This document shows, one piece after another, positions 5,579 through 46,049 of a DNA stretch of 64,000 bases. How positions within the stretch are numbered: position 1 is the first letter of the stretch; each line of letters begins with the position of its first letter. The stretch lies in NCBI GenBank assembly GCA_913057235.1, contig CAJXNI010000002.1:1-64000 (forward strand). The letters run 5' to 3'. The DNA comes from an uncultured Bacteroidota bacterium (lineage in GTDB: Bacteria > Bacteroidota > Bacteroidia > Flavobacteriales > Schleiferiaceae). Below the pieces are notes generated by a model that worked only from the letters and a program-made list of their open reading frames with translations, ran no database searches and was not told where the DNA came from. The translations under genes and the position numbers were made by a program.

Positions 5579-6141
5579 TGTTCAGGTATTCTAAATTATT
5601 TAAAGGCATTGCTGGCTTGCTGGCAATGCTTTTTTTATGCTTTGCCTGTGAGAACGAGGTAGAGCAGGTACGGCTCCTTACACAGGATGAGCGTATACCC
5701 ACCGAAGTGCAAAAAGATTTGGAGGTGGTTTACACCGATAGCACCTTAAAAAAAATGCAACTGCAGGCACCACTAGCCGAAAACTATCCTAACTTAGAGC
5801 AACCACAAAGGGAGTTTCCGCAAGGCATTGAGGTAACTTTTTATGACGATTTTGGCAACCAAAACAGTAGCCTAACCGCTGAATATGCTTTGCAGCTAGT
5901 GAATAAAAGCCTTTGGGAAGCTAGGGGAGACGTGGTGGTAATTAACGTGAAAGGAGAGCAATTAAATACCGAAAAGCTTTTTTGGGACAGTCGCAAAGAA
6001 ATCATCTACTCAGATGAGTTTGTGAAAATTACCACTCCCCAGCAGGTGATAATGGGAGAGGGCTTTAAAGCCGATCAGGATTTTAACGAATACGAAATTT
6101 CAAAGGTTACCGGAACTATAAATATAGAAGACAATGCTTAG
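5578..6141 (+). CDS. lptC: LPS export periplasmic protein LptC
   Basis: A 187-residue predicted lipoprotein or membrane-anchored protein. The hydrophobic N-terminus ends in FLCFACENE, a lipobox-like site at Cys 24. The rest matches the LptC/OstA-type jellyroll: GIEVTFYDDFGNQNSSLTAE, then EARGDVVVINVKGEQLNTEKLFWD and a GEGFKADQDFNEYEISKVTG end, as seen in Bacteroidetes LptC. LptC links the inner-membrane LptBFG transporter to the LptA bridge during lipopolysaccharide export. The start ATG overlaps the preceding TAA (TAATG). An OstA/LptA-like gene sits at 12260-13798. Confidence 0.85.
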   Translation: MFRYSKLFKGIAGLLAMLFLCFACENEVEQVRLLTQDERIPTEVQKDLEVVYTDSTLKKMQLQAPLAENYPNLEQPQREFPQGIEVTFYDDFGNQNSSLTAEYALQLVNKSLWEARGDVVVINVKGEQLNTEKLFWDSRKEIIYSDEFVKITTPQQVIMGEGFKADQDFNEYEISKVTGTINIEDNA

Positions 6142-20378: not shown

Positions 20379-21557
20379 TTAATGATGATGGCCTTCTCCC
20401 TCAGCCATATCTGAAAAGAGGAAGTAGGCATTGTTTAAGACTATGCGCTCTGAATTCCTGAAAACTTCTGGATTGTAAATGGGTCGATACCCATCTATTT
20501 CTTCCCCAGCCTTAACCAGTACTTTTTTAAGGTGAAATTCATTTTCAAATTCTTCTTCAATGGTAAAAGCAAAGAAGCCTTCATTATCTTGCACCAGAGC
20601 ATCGGCCGGTAGAGCCGCAACCTGGTTGGTGTCTGTAATAATGCTTCCACTGGCGTACATGCCTGCCACCAAATAGTTTTTTGGGCTTTTTAGTTCTGCG
20701 TGAATGTGCACCGCCCGGGGCGATTCTTCAATGTTTTTTCCCACCGCAAATATTTCCGCCAGGTAGGTGCTATCGGGGTGGGCTCGCAATTGTACCCGTA
20801 CTTTTTGACCAATTTGAATGAGGTGCACATCTTTTTCATAAACCATTAAGTCTACATGCAGGTGATGAATATCTAATATTTCACAAATGACGCTTTGGGG
20901 TTCTATAAACTGCCCGGTTTTCACATTCACTTTTTGTACAAAGCCCGCAATGGGCGACTTTAAGGGCACCCGCTGGTAGAGTTTCCCTTCCTGTAATTGC
21001 TGTGGATTCAAATGCAGCATGCGTAATTGGCTTTCTAATGATTGGGCCTGCGCTAAAGCACTTTGGTAGGCGCTTTGGGTTTGCTTTAACTCCTTGCCAG
21101 AACCTACTTTTTCTTTGTACAAGTTTTGCTGGCGTTGATACTCATTGGCTAAAAATTGCGCTTCATTCCAGGCCTTTACATAATTGCTCTGTAACTGCAT
21201 TAAGTTAGGATGTTCCAGATAGGCCAGTACGGTGCCTTTTTCCACCGGATCACCTTCCAGCACTTTAATTTCGCTAATGTTGGCGCCCAGTACGCTGGTA
21301 ACGGTAGCTTTATTTTGCGGGGGTACTGTGAGCATTCCTTTGGCACGCACTAAATTATTCAGGGCCTTTTGGGGTAAGGCTCCCACCTTTATACCTAGGT
21401 CTTTAAAGGCATCTTTACCTAGGGTCATTTCTTGAGCTTCTTTAGAGTGCTCTTGCGACTGGCTTTCAGCCGATTTTTCATCAGAAGGGACGTTTTCAGA
21501 TTGGCAAGCTCCCAACAAAAGCGTCAAGAGGCCAAGAGTTATCAGTTTTGTATTCAT
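20379..21557 (-). CDS. RND efflux periplasmic adaptor (CusB/CzcB-like membrane-fusion protein)
   Basis: A 392-residue lipoprotein (LLLGACQSE lipobox at Cys 18) of the HlyD/MFP type. Order: beta-barrel/lipoyl half (NKATVTSVLGANISEIKVLEGDPVEKGTVLAYLEHPNL), an alpha hairpin (about 120-180), the second lipoyl half (LKSPIAGFVQKVNVKTGQFI), then barrel and membrane-proximal domains. The end GEGHHH is a possible metal-binding tail. It bridges the inner-membrane pump and outer-membrane channel. Its start overlaps the stop of the CzcA-TolC fusion gene, so the two are co-translated. Confidence 0.92.
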   Translation of the reverse strand: MNTKLITLGLLTLLLGACQSENVPSDEKSAESQSQEHSKEAQEMTLGKDAFKDLGIKVGALPQKALNNLVRAKGMLTVPPQNKATVTSVLGANISEIKVLEGDPVEKGTVLAYLEHPNLMQLQSNYVKAWNEAQFLANEYQRQQNLYKEKVGSGKELKQTQSAYQSALAQAQSLESQLRMLHLNPQQLQEGKLYQRVPLKSPIAGFVQKVNVKTGQFIEPQSVICEILDIHHLHVDLMVYEKDVHLIQIGQKVRVQLRAHPDSTYLAEIFAVGKNIEESPRAVHIHAELKSPKNYLVAGMYASGSIITDTNQVAALPADALVQDNEGFFAFTIEEEFENEFHLKKVLVKAGEEIDGYRPIYNPEVFRNSERIVLNNAYFLFSDMAEGEGHHH

Positions 21558-24500
21558 GGGGTAGGATCTAAATAATAATGTAATTGGTAATAGCTAATAA
21601 GATATTTTTCAAAGGCTTGCCACGCTTCTAGTTCCAGCTGCATGGCATTTTGGGTATTTTGTATGAAGGCTAAGTAGTCAATGGCTCCGTTTTCAAAGGC
21701 TACAAGCGCGCCCTGCCGCTGCTCACGGGCTAGAGCCAGCGTTTCTTGCTGGTAAAAGCGCCAGGTTTGTTGCCATTTTTCAAAGTTGATGCGGCTGTTG
21801 GCCAGCTTTAGCTGCCATTCATTTTCTTGCTCCTTTACATTTTGCAGAGCCTGGGCCTTTTGAATTTTTAAAGCCTGGGTTTTTCCTAGCTGACTGGAAA
21901 AAACCAGCGGAATGGTTAACCCCGCCTGAAACTGGTAAAAACCACTTTCGCCATTGATGCTTTGCGGACCGTATTGCACATTGACTTGAGGCAGGTACTG
22001 CCAGCGTTGTTGATGGTACTTTTGTTCGGTTAAGAGCTGTTGTTGCTGTGCCTGTTGTAAAATTGGATGATCGTTAGGTTGGGCCGTGGGCGCTGCATTA
22101 AAATCCAGCTTTGGCTGCCAGTCTTCTGGAACCGTGTAGAGCGTATCGCTCATAAGCCAAAGGTTAAAGCGTTGCAAGGCCATTTGATAATCCTGAAAGG
22201 CTTGGTTACGCTTGATCTTTAATTGCCGAGCGGCATTTTGGGCGGCCAGGTATTCCAGTTTGCTGGTGGCCTCGTTTTCATAACGTAAGCGAGCAGCTCG
22301 CTCAAAATTCTGGTAGGCCGTATCCATGCTTTGGTAGCTTAAAAAGCGTTGCCGGGCTGCGTACAAGGTGCTGTAGCTTTTTTGCACCTCCAATTTTAGT
22401 TCCAGTTGGTTTAGGCTCAAGGCCGATTGGGCCAGAGCCACCTGTTGTTTTTTTACCGCCAGAGTAGGCGCCACGTTAAAAAGGGGTACATTCTGTTGGC
22501 TAATGCCAATAGGGGTGTAGACACCTTGGTTGCCGGCAATTTCCTCGCCCGCGGTAAAAATGGTGGTGTTGCCAAAATTCCAGGCTGTTTTCTTTAAGGC
22601 TTTCTGTCGGTCAATCTCCAAGCGGGACGCTTGCATGCGCGGATAACGTTCAAGCGCTTGCTCAACGGCCTGATTTAAACTAATCGCTTCTTCAACAGTG
22701 GTTTGCTCCTGAGCTTGTACATCCCCGAAAGGGATTGCCCAAAGCCCAATTGCTAACACGGCCACGGCCTGAGGATTTACCTGCACCGGACTTTTTTGCT
22801 CTAACCAACGGTAGAGCAGGGGTAATACCAAAAGCGTGAGAAAGGTGGCGCTTAGCATGCCCCCAATAACCACCGTGGCCAGCGGTTGCTGTACTTCGGC
22901 CCCAGCCGAGGTAGAAATGGCCATGGGCAAGAATCCTAAAATATCGGTAAGGGCGGTAAGCAAAATAGGTCTGATTCTGCGTTGAGCTCCTTTTTGGATG
23001 CGCTCACGCAGGCTAAGCTCGGGGTTTTGCGCCTTGATTTCATTCCAACTGCTTATGAGTACCAAACCATTAAGCACAGCTACCCCAAACAGCACAATAA
23101 ATCCTACCCCGGCCGAAATGCTAAAAGGCATATCGCGCAGCCAAAGCGAGAAAACCCCGCCAATGGCCGCCAGGGGAATAGCAATGTAAATCATGAGGGT
23201 TTGTTTTAGTGAGTTTAAAGCAAAAAAGATGAGGATAAAAATGAGGGCTAGGGCCAAAGGAACCAACAGCTGTAGGCGTTGTGTGGCACGCTCTAAATTC
23301 TCAAAAGCTCCTCCGTAACGCAGGTAATAGCCCGCAGGCAGAGTCAATTTCTCATCTAAAGTTTCCTGAATTTCCTGCACCAGGCTTTGCACATCGCGGC
23401 CACGCACGTTTATGCCCACGTAAATTCTGCGGTTGGTGTTTTCACGACTGATTTGCATGGGCCCGGGTTCATAGCTGATATGGGCTAATTCGTGCAAAGG
23501 CACCTGCTGGCCATTGGGTAGCTCAACCAAAAGATTTTGCACGTCTTTCATACCCTGGCGCTGCGCTTCTTGCAGCCGAACCACCACATCAAAACGTTTT
23601 TCGCCTTCAAAAACCACCCCAGCCTTAGAGCCTGCAAAGGCCGTTTTTAAAAGTTGGTTAAGTTGATTTACGTTTACCCCAAAGCGGGCCAGGCTGGCCC
23701 GGTCATATTCCACCGTTAGCTGGGGCAAACCACTGGTGGCTTCCACGCGTTTATCGCCTATGCCTTCAATACCGGCAATTAGGTCTGAGATCTCTTCGGC
23801 TTTGGTTTTTAAAACCTCAAGGTCTTCTCCGTAAAGTTTAATGGCTACGTCCTCCCGTATGCCGGTCATTAACTCGTTAAAGCGCATTTCAATGGGCTGG
23901 GTAAACTCATAGTGCAAACCGGTAATCTCATTTAAAGAGGTCTTAATTTTGGCAATGAGCTCAGGTTTTGTTTCAGCGCTGGTCCATTCATCTTCGGGTT
24001 TTAGGGTAATAAAACAGTCGGCCATGTCCATCGGCATCAAATCAGTGGGTACTTCTGAAACACCGGTGCGGCTTACCACTTTGGTGATTTCAGGAAACTC
24101 AGCCAGCAGTTTCCTCTCTACCTTGGTGGTGGCTTTAACGGCTTCACTCAAGGCGCTGCCCGGACGTAAAATGGTGTGAAAGGCGATGGTGCCTTCATCT
24201 AGCTGCGGGATAAACTCGCCCCCCAGGCGGGTAAAGGTGAAAACCGCTAAGGCCAGAATAGCTACTGCACCGGCTAGTACCCATCGCTGCAGGTTAAAGG
24301 CCTTTTGCAGGATGCCCTGGTAACGCTGCTCTAGCCAGGTTATAAGCTTATCGCCCCAGGTGATTTTAGTACTGGGGTTTACCCGTAAAAACCAGGCCGA
24401 CATCATGGGGACATAGGTAAGGCAAAGGAGCATGACCCCCAGCATGGCAAACATAAAAGTAAGGGCCATAGGCCGGAACATTTTTCCTTCTATGCCTTCT

Positions 24501-25897
24501 AATCCTAAAATGGGGATAAAAACAATGAGAATGATGAGCTGCCCAAAAAAGGCCGAACGCATCATTTTTGAGGAAGATTTCTGGGCCAGTTCATCGCGCT
24601 TAGACGCAGGTACTGTTTGGTGCTTGCGTAAATACTGCGTGATGCCAAATACGGTACCTTCTACAATAATTACCGCGCCATCTACAATAATTCCAAAGTC
24701 AATGGCTCCTAAACTCATAAGGTTGGCCCAAACCCCAAAAACGTGCATGAGAATAAAGGCAAAGAGCAGAGACAAAGGAATTGTGGAAGCTACAATGAGG
24801 CCCCCGCGCCAATTGCCCAGCAAGATTACTAAAACAAAAATTACAATTAAGGCGCCTTCAATCAGGTTGTTGGAAATAGTGGAAGTAGTGCGCCCAATTA
24901 GCTCACTGCGATCAAGATAGGGCTCAATATGCACCCCGGCTGGTAATGATTTTTGAATTTCAGCCATGCGCTTTTTTATGGCCGTAATAACATCATTAGA
25001 GTTAGCCCCTTTCAGCATCATTACCAGGCCGCCCACCGTTTCGCCTTCTCCATTTTCGGTTACGGCACCGTAGCGGATGGCACTACCGTATTGCACCTTA
25101 GCAACATCTTTAACCAAAATGGGCAGGCCATTGCGGTTGGCCACCACAATATTTTCAAGGTCATTGAGGTTTCGCGCCAAGCCTTCACCTCTAATGTAGT
25201 TGGCCATGTGGTTTTTTTCAATGTAGGCGCCCCCGGTATTTTCATTATTGACTTCCAAAGCTTTGAAAATATCGGCCATGCTTACGTTAAGGGCGGCTAA
25301 TTCATCGGGGTTTACTGCTACCTCATATTGCTTTATAAAACCACCAAAAGAGTTTACCTCTACCACCCCCTCCACCATGGCCATTTGCCTGCGTACAATC
25401 CAGTCTTGAATAGTCCGTAAATCGGTGGGACTGTAAGCATCGCGGTAAGCTGAGTCTACGTGTAGGGTATACTGGTAGACTTCACCCAAGCCCGTTGAAA
25501 TAGGGCCCATAAAAGGTTGGCCAAAGCCTTTGGGAATTTTATCTTGCAAGGTGGTGAGCTTCTCATTCACTAACTGCCGCGGCAGATAGGTACCCATGTC
25601 TTCCTCAAATACTATGGTTACCGCTGAGAGGCCGCTGCGCGACACGGAGCGAATTTCGCGTACACCCGGCAGGTTGGCCATGGCCACTTCTACCGGGTAG
25701 CTAATGAATTGCTCAATTTCTTCGGTACCCAAATTGGGTGCTTGCGTTATTACCTGTACCTGGTTGTTGGTAATGTCAGGTACAGCATCTATGGGTACGC
25801 GGGTTAAACTGTAAAGTCCCCCGGCAATGAGTGCCAGGGTGAAAAGGCCCACCACCAGTTTGTGGCGAATGGAAAAGGCAATGATCGCGTTAATCAT
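21554..25897 (-). CDS. CzcA-type heavy-metal RND pump fused to a TolC-type outer-membrane factor
   Basis: A 1447-residue fusion. Residues 1 to about 1035 are an HME-family RND transporter with 12 membrane segments. In the fourth segment IDFGIIVDGAVIIVEG keeps the Asp/Asp/Glu pattern of CzcA (Zn, Co, Cd) and not the CusA pattern, so divalent cations are the likely cargo. From about 1060 the protein is a CzcC/TolC-like outer-membrane factor with two long coiled repeats (SLNQAVEQALERYPRMQASR onward). Between them lies VLAIGLWAIPFGDVQAQEQ, which looks like a retained signal peptide. The adaptor gene follows. Bacteroidetes carry similar fusions. How one chain reaches both membranes is unclear unless it is cleaved. 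Confidence 0.92.
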   Translation of the reverse strand: MINAIIAFSIRHKLVVGLFTLALIAGGLYSLTRVPIDAVPDITNNQVQVITQAPNLGTEEIEQFISYPVEVAMANLPGVREIRSVSRSGLSAVTIVFEEDMGTYLPRQLVNEKLTTLQDKIPKGFGQPFMGPISTGLGEVYQYTLHVDSAYRDAYSPTDLRTIQDWIVRRQMAMVEGVVEVNSFGGFIKQYEVAVNPDELAALNVSMADIFKALEVNNENTGGAYIEKNHMANYIRGEGLARNLNDLENIVVANRNGLPILVKDVAKVQYGSAIRYGAVTENGEGETVGGLVMMLKGANSNDVITAIKKRMAEIQKSLPAGVHIEPYLDRSELIGRTTSTISNNLIEGALIVIFVLVILLGNWRGGLIVASTIPLSLLFAFILMHVFGVWANLMSLGAIDFGIIVDGAVIIVEGTVFGITQYLRKHQTVPASKRDELAQKSSSKMMRSAFFGQLIILIVFIPILGLEGIEGKMFRPMALTFMFAMLGVMLLCLTYVPMMSAWFLRVNPSTKITWGDKLITWLEQRYQGILQKAFNLQRWVLAGAVAILALAVFTFTRLGGEFIPQLDEGTIAFHTILRPGSALSEAVKATTKVERKLLAEFPEITKVVSRTGVSEVPTDLMPMDMADCFITLKPEDEWTSAETKPELIAKIKTSLNEITGLHYEFTQPIEMRFNELMTGIREDVAIKLYGEDLEVLKTKAEEISDLIAGIEGIGDKRVEATSGLPQLTVEYDRASLARFGVNVNQLNQLLKTAFAGSKAGVVFEGEKRFDVVVRLQEAQRQGMKDVQNLLVELPNGQQVPLHELAHISYEPGPMQISRENTNRRIYVGINVRGRDVQSLVQEIQETLDEKLTLPAGYYLRYGGAFENLERATQRLQLLVPLALALIFILIFFALNSLKQTLMIYIAIPLAAIGGVFSLWLRDMPFSISAGVGFIVLFGVAVLNGLVLISSWNEIKAQNPELSLRERIQKGAQRRIRPILLTALTDILGFLPMAISTSAGAEVQQPLATVVIGGMLSATFLTLLVLPLLYRWLEQKSPVQVNPQAVAVLAIGLWAIPFGDVQAQEQTTVEEAISLNQAVEQALERYPRMQASRLEIDRQKALKKTAWNFGNTTIFTAGEEIAGNQGVYTPIGISQQNVPLFNVAPTLAVKKQQVALAQSALSLNQLELKLEVQKSYSTLYAARQRFLSYQSMDTAYQNFERAARLRYENEATSKLEYLAAQNAARQLKIKRNQAFQDYQMALQRFNLWLMSDTLYTVPEDWQPKLDFNAAPTAQPNDHPILQQAQQQQLLTEQKYHQQRWQYLPQVNVQYGPQSINGESGFYQFQAGLTIPLVFSSQLGKTQALKIQKAQALQNVKEQENEWQLKLANSRINFEKWQQTWRFYQQETLALAREQRQGALVAFENGAIDYLAFIQNTQNAMQLELEAWQAFEKYLISYYQLHYYLDPTP

Positions 25898-25974: not shown

Positions 25975-26370
25975 TTAGGCTAGAGAGTAAGGAGGGGGGC
26001 TGCGTAGCGATTGCAAACTTATCCTTAGCCACTTAGGTAAAGGGGTTAGCTGGGTAGAAACTTTAGAAGCGGGCTCGGGCAGAAGTGCTACTGGTAACAC
26101 CCAGGTTTGGACAGGCATGGGACCAAACAGCAGGATACTAAGGTCCTGAGCCTGGCCTTTTTGAAAATTCTCGAGATGCTCAGTTCCGTGACTAAACTCA
26201 AAAATGGAACTTAACCAATGTAAAAAGCTAATTTCAGAATGGGGCTCTTCACTAAAACTAAGGCTATGCGCCACGGAAGCATCAAAATTGTGGTGGTGAT
26301 GCGGCACAATGCTGTGCATTAGGCCCAAGCCTAAAGCAATGAAAAGTACGGTTTGCCTCAGAATTTTCAC
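25975..26370 (-). CDS. Histidine-containing exported protein upstream of the metal pump
   Basis: A 131-residue protein from GTG 26370 with a hydrophobic N-terminus (LRQTVLFIALGLGLMHSIVP) followed at once by HHHHNFDASVAH, then more scattered His/Glu. A second hydrophobic stretch is near 85-100. No family is recognised with confidence. It is on the same strand as the pump and adaptor, 77 bases upstream, and the HHHH motif suggests a periplasmic metal sensor or chaperone for that system. This is inference from context only. Confidence 0.65.
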   Translation of the reverse strand: MKILRQTVLFIALGLGLMHSIVPHHHHNFDASVAHSLSFSEEPHSEISFLHWLSSIFEFSHGTEHLENFQKGQAQDLSILLFGPMPVQTWVLPVALLPEPASKVSTQLTPLPKWLRISLQSLRSPPPYSLA

Positions 26371-44457: not shown

Positions 44458-46049
44458 GACTTTTTCACCGCTTTTTTCTTTTTGCGCGTGCGGTTTACCA
44501 CGGTTACAATCACCACCACGCCAACAAAGTACCAGAAGTAACTGGTGCGCTCGCTATCTCCACTAACGGTGGTAAACACCCGGTCAAATCTAATTTTATC
44601 GGCCAGGCCTTTGCCAAACTTGTCAAAGCTCATCCAAATAAAAACTGGTTTTCCCACTATGTGGTCTTGTGGCACAAAGCCCCAAAAACGCGAGTCGTCT
44701 GAACTGTGGCGGTTATCGCCCATCATAAAATAATAATCTTGCTCAAAGGTGTAGCTGGTGGCTGGCTGGCCATTTAGCACAAACTCTTCCCCTTTGCGCT
44801 GCAGATCATTTCCTTCGTAAAAGCGAATCACGCGCTCATATTTATAATAGTTGTCTTCATTTAGTGTAATGGATTCCCCAGCCTTGGGAATGTAAAGCGG
44901 CCCGTAATTATCGCGTGTCCACTGGTATTTTAAACCGTTGCTGTGAAAAGGATTGGGATTGGGAAAAACCGGGTTCGCCATATTGGGCTCATCGGCCAGA
45001 TTGGGAACCACTCTTTTAACCGAGGCAAAATTGCGCAAGGCTTCTACCTTATCATCGGGTACATCCATCACGTAGCGTACCTCTCCATTTTGGGTATAGG
45101 CTGGTTGTTCCTTTAAGGCTTGCATGATGTCAATGTCCAATTCCTTTTTCAAGATCTCCTCAGTAAGTTGGGTACCATCGGTGAAAACCTCATAACTGAT
45201 TTGCTTGATGGTGCGGCGCGGCAATTGATTTTCTTTACCATTGATGTACACGGTACCATCGCTAATTTTGAGGGTATCTCCGGGCAAACCAATCGCTCTT
45301 TTTACGTAATGTTCCCGCTTGTCTATGGGCATTACCTTTTCTTCCATCCCAAACATTTCTCCTCTAATATCCTGGGCGGGATAATTGAACACCACTGGAT
45401 CATTTTGGGCAATGGGCGCCAGGGCCGGTAGTCTAAAATAGGGCAGGGTAAGGGCATCAGAATAGGAAGAAATGCTGGTGCCCGGTATTTTGTTGTGCAC
45501 TAGGGGCAGAGCTAAGGGGGTCATGGGGGTGCGTATTCCGTAGTGCATTTTACTCACAAAAAGGAAGTCGCCCACCATCAGCGATTTTTCCATACTGGGC
45601 GTTGGAATGGTGAAGGCTTCAAAAGTAAAGGCCCTAATTACGGATGCGGCTACCACAGCAAAGATGATGGAGGAGACCAGCTCACTAATGTGTCTGCGAA
45701 TTTCTTTGATATCGCGGCCTTTGTAATTCAGTTCCTCGGTGTAGCCCAGGTAACCAAAATAGAGCCCAGCCGTTAGGGTGGCAATAAGAATATTTTTAAA
45801 GGAGCCCAAGCGGTACACATGCAGCAGCTCATACATCATTACCACCAGCATTACATTGCCTACACCCGGTATTAGGGCTAAAATTACCCACCACCAAGGG
45901 CGTTCAATTACCTGAGTGATTACATACAAGTTGTAAATAGGCACCAAAGCCAAAGCCTGGTTTTTACCGGCATTTTTAAGAAAAGGCAGAGCCAGAATTC
46001 CGAAATACAAATAGATTCCGATGAAATAGATGAGAAGACTGCTAAGCAT
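44454..46049 (-). CDS. lepB: Signal peptidase I with an extra N-terminal membrane domain
   Basis: The 531-residue inner-membrane peptidase removes Sec signal peptides. The first about 110 residues are an additional membrane region with three or four helices (DUF5684-like: NAGKNQALALVPIYNLYVIT, RPWWWVILALIPGVGNVMLV). The peptidase proper follows: FTIPTPSMEKSLMVGDFLFVSK with the catalytic Ser, DKREHYVKRAIGLPGDTLKI with the catalytic Lys, and MMGDNRHSSDDSRFWGFVPQ. A long insertion separates the last two. A C-terminal helix and basic tail close the protein. It starts 1 base into the dapB stop. The 531-residue length is usual for Bacteroidetes LepB. Confidence 0.95.
   Translation of the reverse strand: MLSSLLIYFIGIYLYFGILALPFLKNAGKNQALALVPIYNLYVITQVIERPWWWVILALIPGVGNVMLVVMMYELLHVYRLGSFKNILIATLTAGLYFGYLGYTEELNYKGRDIKEIRRHISELVSSIIFAVVAASVIRAFTFEAFTIPTPSMEKSLMVGDFLFVSKMHYGIRTPMTPLALPLVHNKIPGTSISSYSDALTLPYFRLPALAPIAQNDPVVFNYPAQDIRGEMFGMEEKVMPIDKREHYVKRAIGLPGDTLKISDGTVYINGKENQLPRRTIKQISYEVFTDGTQLTEEILKKELDIDIMQALKEQPAYTQNGEVRYVMDVPDDKVEALRNFASVKRVVPNLADEPNMANPVFPNPNPFHSNGLKYQWTRDNYGPLYIPKAGESITLNEDNYYKYERVIRFYEGNDLQRKGEEFVLNGQPATSYTFEQDYYFMMGDNRHSSDDSRFWGFVPQDHIVGKPVFIWMSFDKFGKGLADKIRFDRVFTTVSGDSERTSYFWYFVGVVVIVTVVNRTRKKKKAVKKS

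Follow-up and report, generated by a model that had tools for sequence, protein, structure and literature searches.

Metal-efflux systems of the CusCBA and CzcCBA type combine an HME-RND pump, a channel of the TolC/CusC fold and an adjoining adaptor gene, and the same three components occur in the window, by which we mean the whole 64,000-nucleotide stretch of DNA that was analysed. In E. coli, the channel CusC, a lipoprotein, and the pump CusA each have a gene of their own. In the window, by contrast, pump and channel share one reading frame, and the predicted N-terminus of the channel is Gln. The joint between the two holds no lipobox Cys of the kind sought for a lipoprotein-type outer-membrane factor (CusC, OprM), which speaks against a lipoprotein-type channel. 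A second described system offers a parallel for the joint. In Bradyrhizobium, the fbcH gene (cytochrome b-c1 precursor) encodes a multi-pass membrane protein together with an exported protein, and signal peptidase parts the two at a signal peptide inside the chain. Both fbcH products stay in the inner membrane. The joint anatomy in the window appears to fit an fbcH-like polyprotein, although, unlike in fbcH, one of the products should go to the outer membrane. The usual reading of genes such as this one is that of a single transporter of 1450 residues, and a single chain of that kind could hardly be placed in the envelope. Among the titles and abstract beginnings covered by a literature search, no RND-channel fusion was described as having an internal signal peptide.

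A further point of comparison is the Q-rule of Bacteroidetes. According to the accessible part of one report, predicted signal peptidase I substrates of this group start with Gln in a mean of 71%, averaged over species, and in reanalysed mass-spectrometry data such Gln residues are present as pyroglutamate (PMC5837995). A cut site followed by Gln is what these substrates share with the window joint; as described in that part of the source, which makes no mention of internal ones, they carry ordinary signal peptides, whereas the signal peptide in the window would be internal (PMC5837995). The joint Gln, which directly follows the predicted signal peptidase I cut, fits the Q-rule. We consider it very probable that the gene encodes a polyprotein with an internal signal peptide, where signal peptidase I severs the channel from the pump. 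The sequences themselves show the domains, the anatomy of the joint, the conservation of the joint, and the existence of unfused relatives.

The fusion frame lies at 21554-25897 on the minus strand and has 1447 codons. The initial annotation, which gave no strand, had described pump and outer-membrane factor as a single 1447-residue frame; this is confirmed as an open reading frame, and both domains are matched by profile. In order of translation, the locus reads as follows.

22793..25897, minus strand: CusA/CzcA-type (HME-RND) pump domain, residues 1-1035 (TIGR00914, ACR_tran)
22769..22792, minus strand: linker ahead of the hydrophobic core, residues 1036-1043, SPVQVNPQ (sequence)
22727..22768, minus strand: putative h-region, residues 1044-1057, AVAVLAIGLWAIPF, with a Pro close to its end (hydropathy, AlphaFold helix)
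22712..22726, minus strand: putative c-region GDVQA, residues 1058-1062, with the predicted signal peptidase I cut after A1062 (sequence)
21557..22711, minus strand: predicted mature outer-membrane factor (TolC/OprM/CusC fold), residues 1063-1447, first residue Gln (Pfam OEP, model)
20379..21557, minus strand: periplasmic adaptor, CusB/CzcB-like (HlyD_D23, RND_mfp, ORF coordinates)

The TIGR00914 match covers residues 1-1036 (model positions 1-1039 of 1051) and scores 1196.7 bits against a cut-off of 701.45, while Pfam ACR_tran matches residues 5-1032. In the C-terminal part, Pfam OEP matches two stretches, the best at 1276-1443. The adaptor has a lipoprotein-type N-terminus (LLGAC, by eye), and its start codon overlaps the stop codon of the fusion (ATGA). 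A scan for promoters and terminators around this operon found sites no more numerous than in shuffles (7 vs 7.6; 10 vs 9.9).

The pump domain ends with its last membrane helix and a short tail, and from that tail onward the joint reads LLYRWLEQK-SPVQVNPQ-AVAVLAIGLWAIPF-GDVQA/QEQTTVEEAISLNQAVEQAL, where the slash marks the predicted cut and the residues after it begin QEQ. The initial annotation had seen here the form of a signal peptide with a signal-peptidase-like AQA site, directly followed by the TolC domain. The form stands, with a hydrophobic segment and a V1060-Q-A1062/Q1063 site; the string AQA is absent, and the site is VQA/Q. The placement of the domain also stands, as residues 1063-1447 correspond to a complete TolC-like channel. 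With regard to Sec and signal peptidase I signals, the window has an h-region (best 12-residue KD hydropathy 2.57), V-x-A at positions -3 and -1, and a positive n-region, whose net charge of +1, counting K1035 just upstream, is weak. The Gln that the Bacteroidetes Q-rule places at +1 is Q1063.

The comparison of joints covered 195 fusion frames, represented by 96 sequences after thinning to 60% channel identity. The loci were the best matches to the window protein, so distant fusions are under-sampled; the 195 do not include one locus at a contig end (L200) or seven later additions (L245-L251), of which five belong to a single distant family. The hydrophobic core was taken as the best 12-residue stretch within 72 residues. 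Fusions with no internal hydrophobic segment had been named beforehand as the case that would speak against a signal peptide at the joint, and none is present in the sample: a core follows the pump in 195 of 195 fusions (in L160 by eye, the script having picked a wrong core), and at all seven of the later joints. It is preceded by a net positive stretch, mostly K/R-rich, in 94 of the 96 representatives. Right after the core, a small residue followed by Gln occurs in 191 of 195 fusions and 92 of 96 representatives. The motif was defined as small-x-small/Gln, permitting A, G, S or C at -1, and the residue found there within the motif is A in 72, S in 16 and G in 4 of the 92. The exceptions among the 195 are L123 (GYT/Q), L187 (LYG/K), L190 (AEA/C) and L160; the last failed through the script's wrong core and has TQG/Q after the core by eye. 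Among L245-L251, the Gln motif is seen by eye in five of seven, the others being L245 (AHA/D) and L248 (LTQ).

The same motif is found at 34 of 1121 hydrophobic membrane segments of the same pumps and at 7 of 318 outward-facing pump segments, the latter control being drawn from the 53 of 96 representatives that have exactly 12 pump segments, with the other 43 set aside; these null comparisons concern the motif, not the core alone. Shuffled joint tails give the motif in 37%, so composition explains it partly, but does not explain its rate at the joints (92 of 96). Since the motif itself includes Gln, an alignment not anchored on Gln is a fairer test. Such an alignment was made of 45 fusions, namely that of the window and those of 44 loci after a filter at 85% channel identity. 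Nine of its columns are invariant, Q1063 among them, and A1062 is at least 90% conserved, while the rest of the joint region is variable, with little consensus. The initial annotation had proposed such an alignment of Bacteroidetes CzcA-TolC fusions as a check on its idea, and in this one the two residues flanking the predicted cut are conserved. In a second alignment, confined to the 92 representatives that bear the motif, 79 of the 92 predicted cut sites fall in a single column. Gln is encoded by both of its codons and Ala by all four, so it is the protein in which these residues are conserved. For free channel proteins of the phylum, the motif is present in 16 of the 24 frames that could be scored (one of 25 was unscored). 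By sequence, the joint segment has the hallmarks of a signal peptide of the signal peptidase I type.

An AlphaFold model of residues 1015-1447 (45 sequences, mean pLDDT 88.4) contains the last pump helix, a 16-residue joint helix (1042-1057), and then a complete TolC-type protomer. The only stretch of at least three residues with pLDDT below 50 is model residues 44-50 (1058-1064), which lies over the predicted cut. The channel model has the four long strands and long helices of the outer-membrane-factor fold, and its best Foldseek matches against the PDB include OprJ, OprN, OprM, CusC, SilC, and TolC, at TM ~0.65-0.73; the confidence of the model in a TolC-type fold for the channel is good. 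The C-terminus of RND pumps is cytoplasmic, an established fact for CusA and AcrB, and the joint therefore has to traverse the inner membrane. Hydrophobic segments number a median of 12 per pump across the 96 representatives, with exactly 12 in 53 of them (by a hydropathy count, which is not a topology prediction), so it is the joint that must supply the crossing.

Such a crossing could also be made by a 13th transmembrane helix that is permanent. A helix oriented N-in/C-out would be enough to export the channel domain without cleavage, and a helix is predicted over the joint in the model; the channel would then be exported but tethered, in an uncut chain spanning both membranes. However, the uncharged run at the joint is short (median 16, range 12-26), and the conserved small-x-small/Gln site would not be needed by a plain anchor. 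Distance is a further obstacle. From the cut to the first channel helix there are a median of 6 residues (range 3-23, 10 in the window; alignment of 92), and the 16 residues between the end of the joint helix and the first channel helix in the window model would reach at most ~60 Å when extended. By comparison, the accessible parts of the structural reports place that first helix of OprM in an equatorial belt, at mid-height of a 100 Å periplasmic barrel (PMC8277102), and have TolC standing on the adaptor hairpins tip to tip, as in TolC-AcrA (PMC5404916). Judging from these related structures, and from the height that pump and adaptor take up below the channel, a chain that stayed uncut, with its anchor in the inner membrane, would hardly be able to put the channel in position. 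As the linker is short and the site is conserved, the uncut membrane-spanning chain is disfavoured, and we regard it as quite unlikely.

The channel might instead be made, also or only, from a second translation start in the joint, in which case the hydrophobic segment would be an ordinary N-terminal signal peptide. This would be in keeping with the linker ATG present in 58 of 195 fusions (35 of 96 representatives), some of which open typical starts, for example MKKKS in L113. On the other hand, ATG, GTG and TTG are all missing from the stretch between pump end and core in 95 of 195 fusions (36 of 96 representatives), so an internal start cannot explain about half of the fusions. The window linker itself has GTG codons only, and a start at one of these would yield a signal peptide without a positive side chain. 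We find this alternative about as unlikely as a permanent helix.

Matches to the fusion protein occur in 393 of 395 genomes of the phylum, many in the pump part only; among the matches listed for the 395 genomes, most are full-length fusions. Of the 150 TIGR00914 matches listed (148 genomes), 66 lie in frames of at least 1350 codons after one exclusion, and the other 84 are not counted as such; this count rests on frame length, with the channel checked in part of the rows and at most four candidates scored per genome. Eighty contigs taken for comparison come, by their titles, mostly from Flavobacteriaceae, and also from Cyclobacteriaceae, Pedobacter, Chitinophagales, and Bacteroidales. The fusion layout is widespread in the phylum and not peculiar to the window. 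One 1777-aa frame (G135:C78) was excluded as a fusion, being a pump with an open GC-rich frame ahead of it. Single stop codons part the two domains in L095 and L161, as they might if the fusion were a sequencing artefact or a decayed gene, but this is very unlikely, and the least probable of the alternatives, given the number of cases in which the long frame is found (195 fusions, 96 when thinned, and the 66 listed matches). For L095, which comes from a draft genome, the split may itself be an error of sequencing.

A phylogeny of 131 pump domains, 104 of them fused and 27 unfused, requires nine changes between these two states, all nine forced by starred branches. The tree was built with FastTree and rooted at the midpoint, with the first set of fused rows thinned to 60% identity and the later fused and the unfused rows unthinned. 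Rooted in this way, it has the fused state gained once and undone about eight times, which leaves 14 unfused rows nested among fused ones; the direction, one fusion and several separations, rests on the midpoint root. In 13 of the 14, the gene that directly follows the pump encodes the channel, and L206 is without an adjoining one. From the pump stop to the channel start, taken as the first plausible ATG, there are no more than 50 bases in 10 of the 13, and 155 in L208, 245 in L205, and 249 in L211. For example, the pump and channel genes of L161 lie 15 bases apart in the same frame. The channel there starts MKTSISTIFLLLISSFSLAQ, which resembles MSKPIVTVIILLFSTFSFAQ, the joint of L164, a fused locus of that genus. 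The motif is present in 11 of 11 scorable split channel partners; the other two of the 13, L202 and L211, had no core over the threshold, and both end in AQ by eye. These separate CzcA and outer-membrane-factor pairs (L161, L202-L205, L207-L213) have the same pumps, channels and order as the window, and an equivalent signal peptide at the N-terminus of the channel; unlike in the window fusion, a stop codon and a new start intervene. By this comparison of sequences, the joint segment and a genuine N-terminal signal peptide have been interchangeable in evolution, whatever the direction. As unfused versions occur repeatedly, the fusion is dispensable. The main reading of the initial annotation, an internal signal peptide that is probably cut, is supported. 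What these comparisons add to the initial annotation is that the apparent internal signal peptide is a general feature of the sampled Bacteroidota CzcA-channel fusions, that it obeys the Gln rule, and that pump and channel have been split or joined repeatedly at the same point.

If the gene is a processed polyprotein, as we favour, we infer the topology, the cleavage, the pyroglutamate, and the 1:1 benefit along the following lines. The ribosome would make a 12-helix CusA/CzcA pump with its C-terminus in the cytoplasm, after which the hydrophobic segment (~1044-1057) would re-engage Sec as an N-in/C-out signal peptide and take the channel domain through the inner membrane. A cut after A1062 by signal peptidase I would then release a 385-residue TolC-like outer-membrane factor, whose N-terminal Gln would probably be cyclised to pyroglutamate and which would reach the outer membrane as such proteins usually do. 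The spent signal peptide would be kept by the pump as a 13th helix, or trimmed. Both products, in equal amounts from one message, would join the adaptor from the neighbouring gene in one tripartite metal-efflux complex. A 1:1 supply of both subunits, as proposed in the initial annotation, may be the reason for the fusion, although the unfused relatives manage without it. An internal signal that follows 12 membrane helices may be cut poorly, with some of the chain left uncut.

With regard to the machinery, a signal peptidase I gene is present in the same genome, at 44631-45686. A search of the window's genome for a glutaminyl cyclase gave no Glu_cyclase_2 match and four Peptidase_M28 matches, none of which was identified as a cyclase. 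Three of these four M28 peptidase frames have signal-peptide-like starts that end in A/Q by eye.

More broadly, we think it likely that such fusions form a widespread class of Bacteroidota efflux polyproteins, in which signal peptidase I parts pump and channel, the 13th helix stays behind, and shared translation fixes a 3:3 ratio, possibly with local co-assembly. If the joint is cut, the long frame is a precursor, and for this common Bacteroidota metal pump the topology, the mass and the stoichiometry, as well as the structure models, would have to be worked out afresh for two products. The fusions would also offer a natural and widespread test case for whether signal peptidase I cuts signal peptides that follow a dozen membrane helices, and for whether the coupled synthesis of inner- and outer-membrane partners aids their assembly.

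In one locus from a related genome, L095, the pump and channel are separated by a single stop codon near position 6088, right after the last pump helix, at a place where relatives carry Trp. Because the channel frame runs on past this stop, where a Met and then a signal peptide follow, the stop codon could represent either a new separation of pump and channel or a sequencing error. The unfused pump of L206 is nested among fused pumps in the tree; a channel gene was sought beside it and none was found, and an adaptor gene directly follows the pump.

Joints also vary among the fusions. The linker that precedes the signal peptide in L201 holds an additional Pro-rich insert, PHPNPSPEGRG, which looks like a translated repeat element. 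In L036, L038, and L107, the joints are longer and contain more than one AQ in succession (e.g., AIAPAQSAVEGKAQQ), as if the predicted cut region had been duplicated. The contig of L075, which bears a fusion, is labeled Ectothiorhodospiraceae, a gammaproteobacterial name; its fusion groups with Bacteroidota in the pump tree, and the contig is probably mis-binned.

Two further features lie in the same window as the fusion:

25975-26370, minus strand, small ORF with a GTG start, immediately upstream of the fusion

44631-45686, minus strand, signal peptidase I gene (Pfam match)

The small ORF is His-rich near its N-terminus (PHHHH), had no match in Pfam or NCBIfam at an E-value of 0.001, and is possibly a metal-binding partner. 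The signal peptidase I gene belongs to the same genome as the fusion. Its Pfam match falls in two stretches, with 435 bases between them, inside a 533-codon open frame, and this divided match may reflect an insertion within the enzyme.
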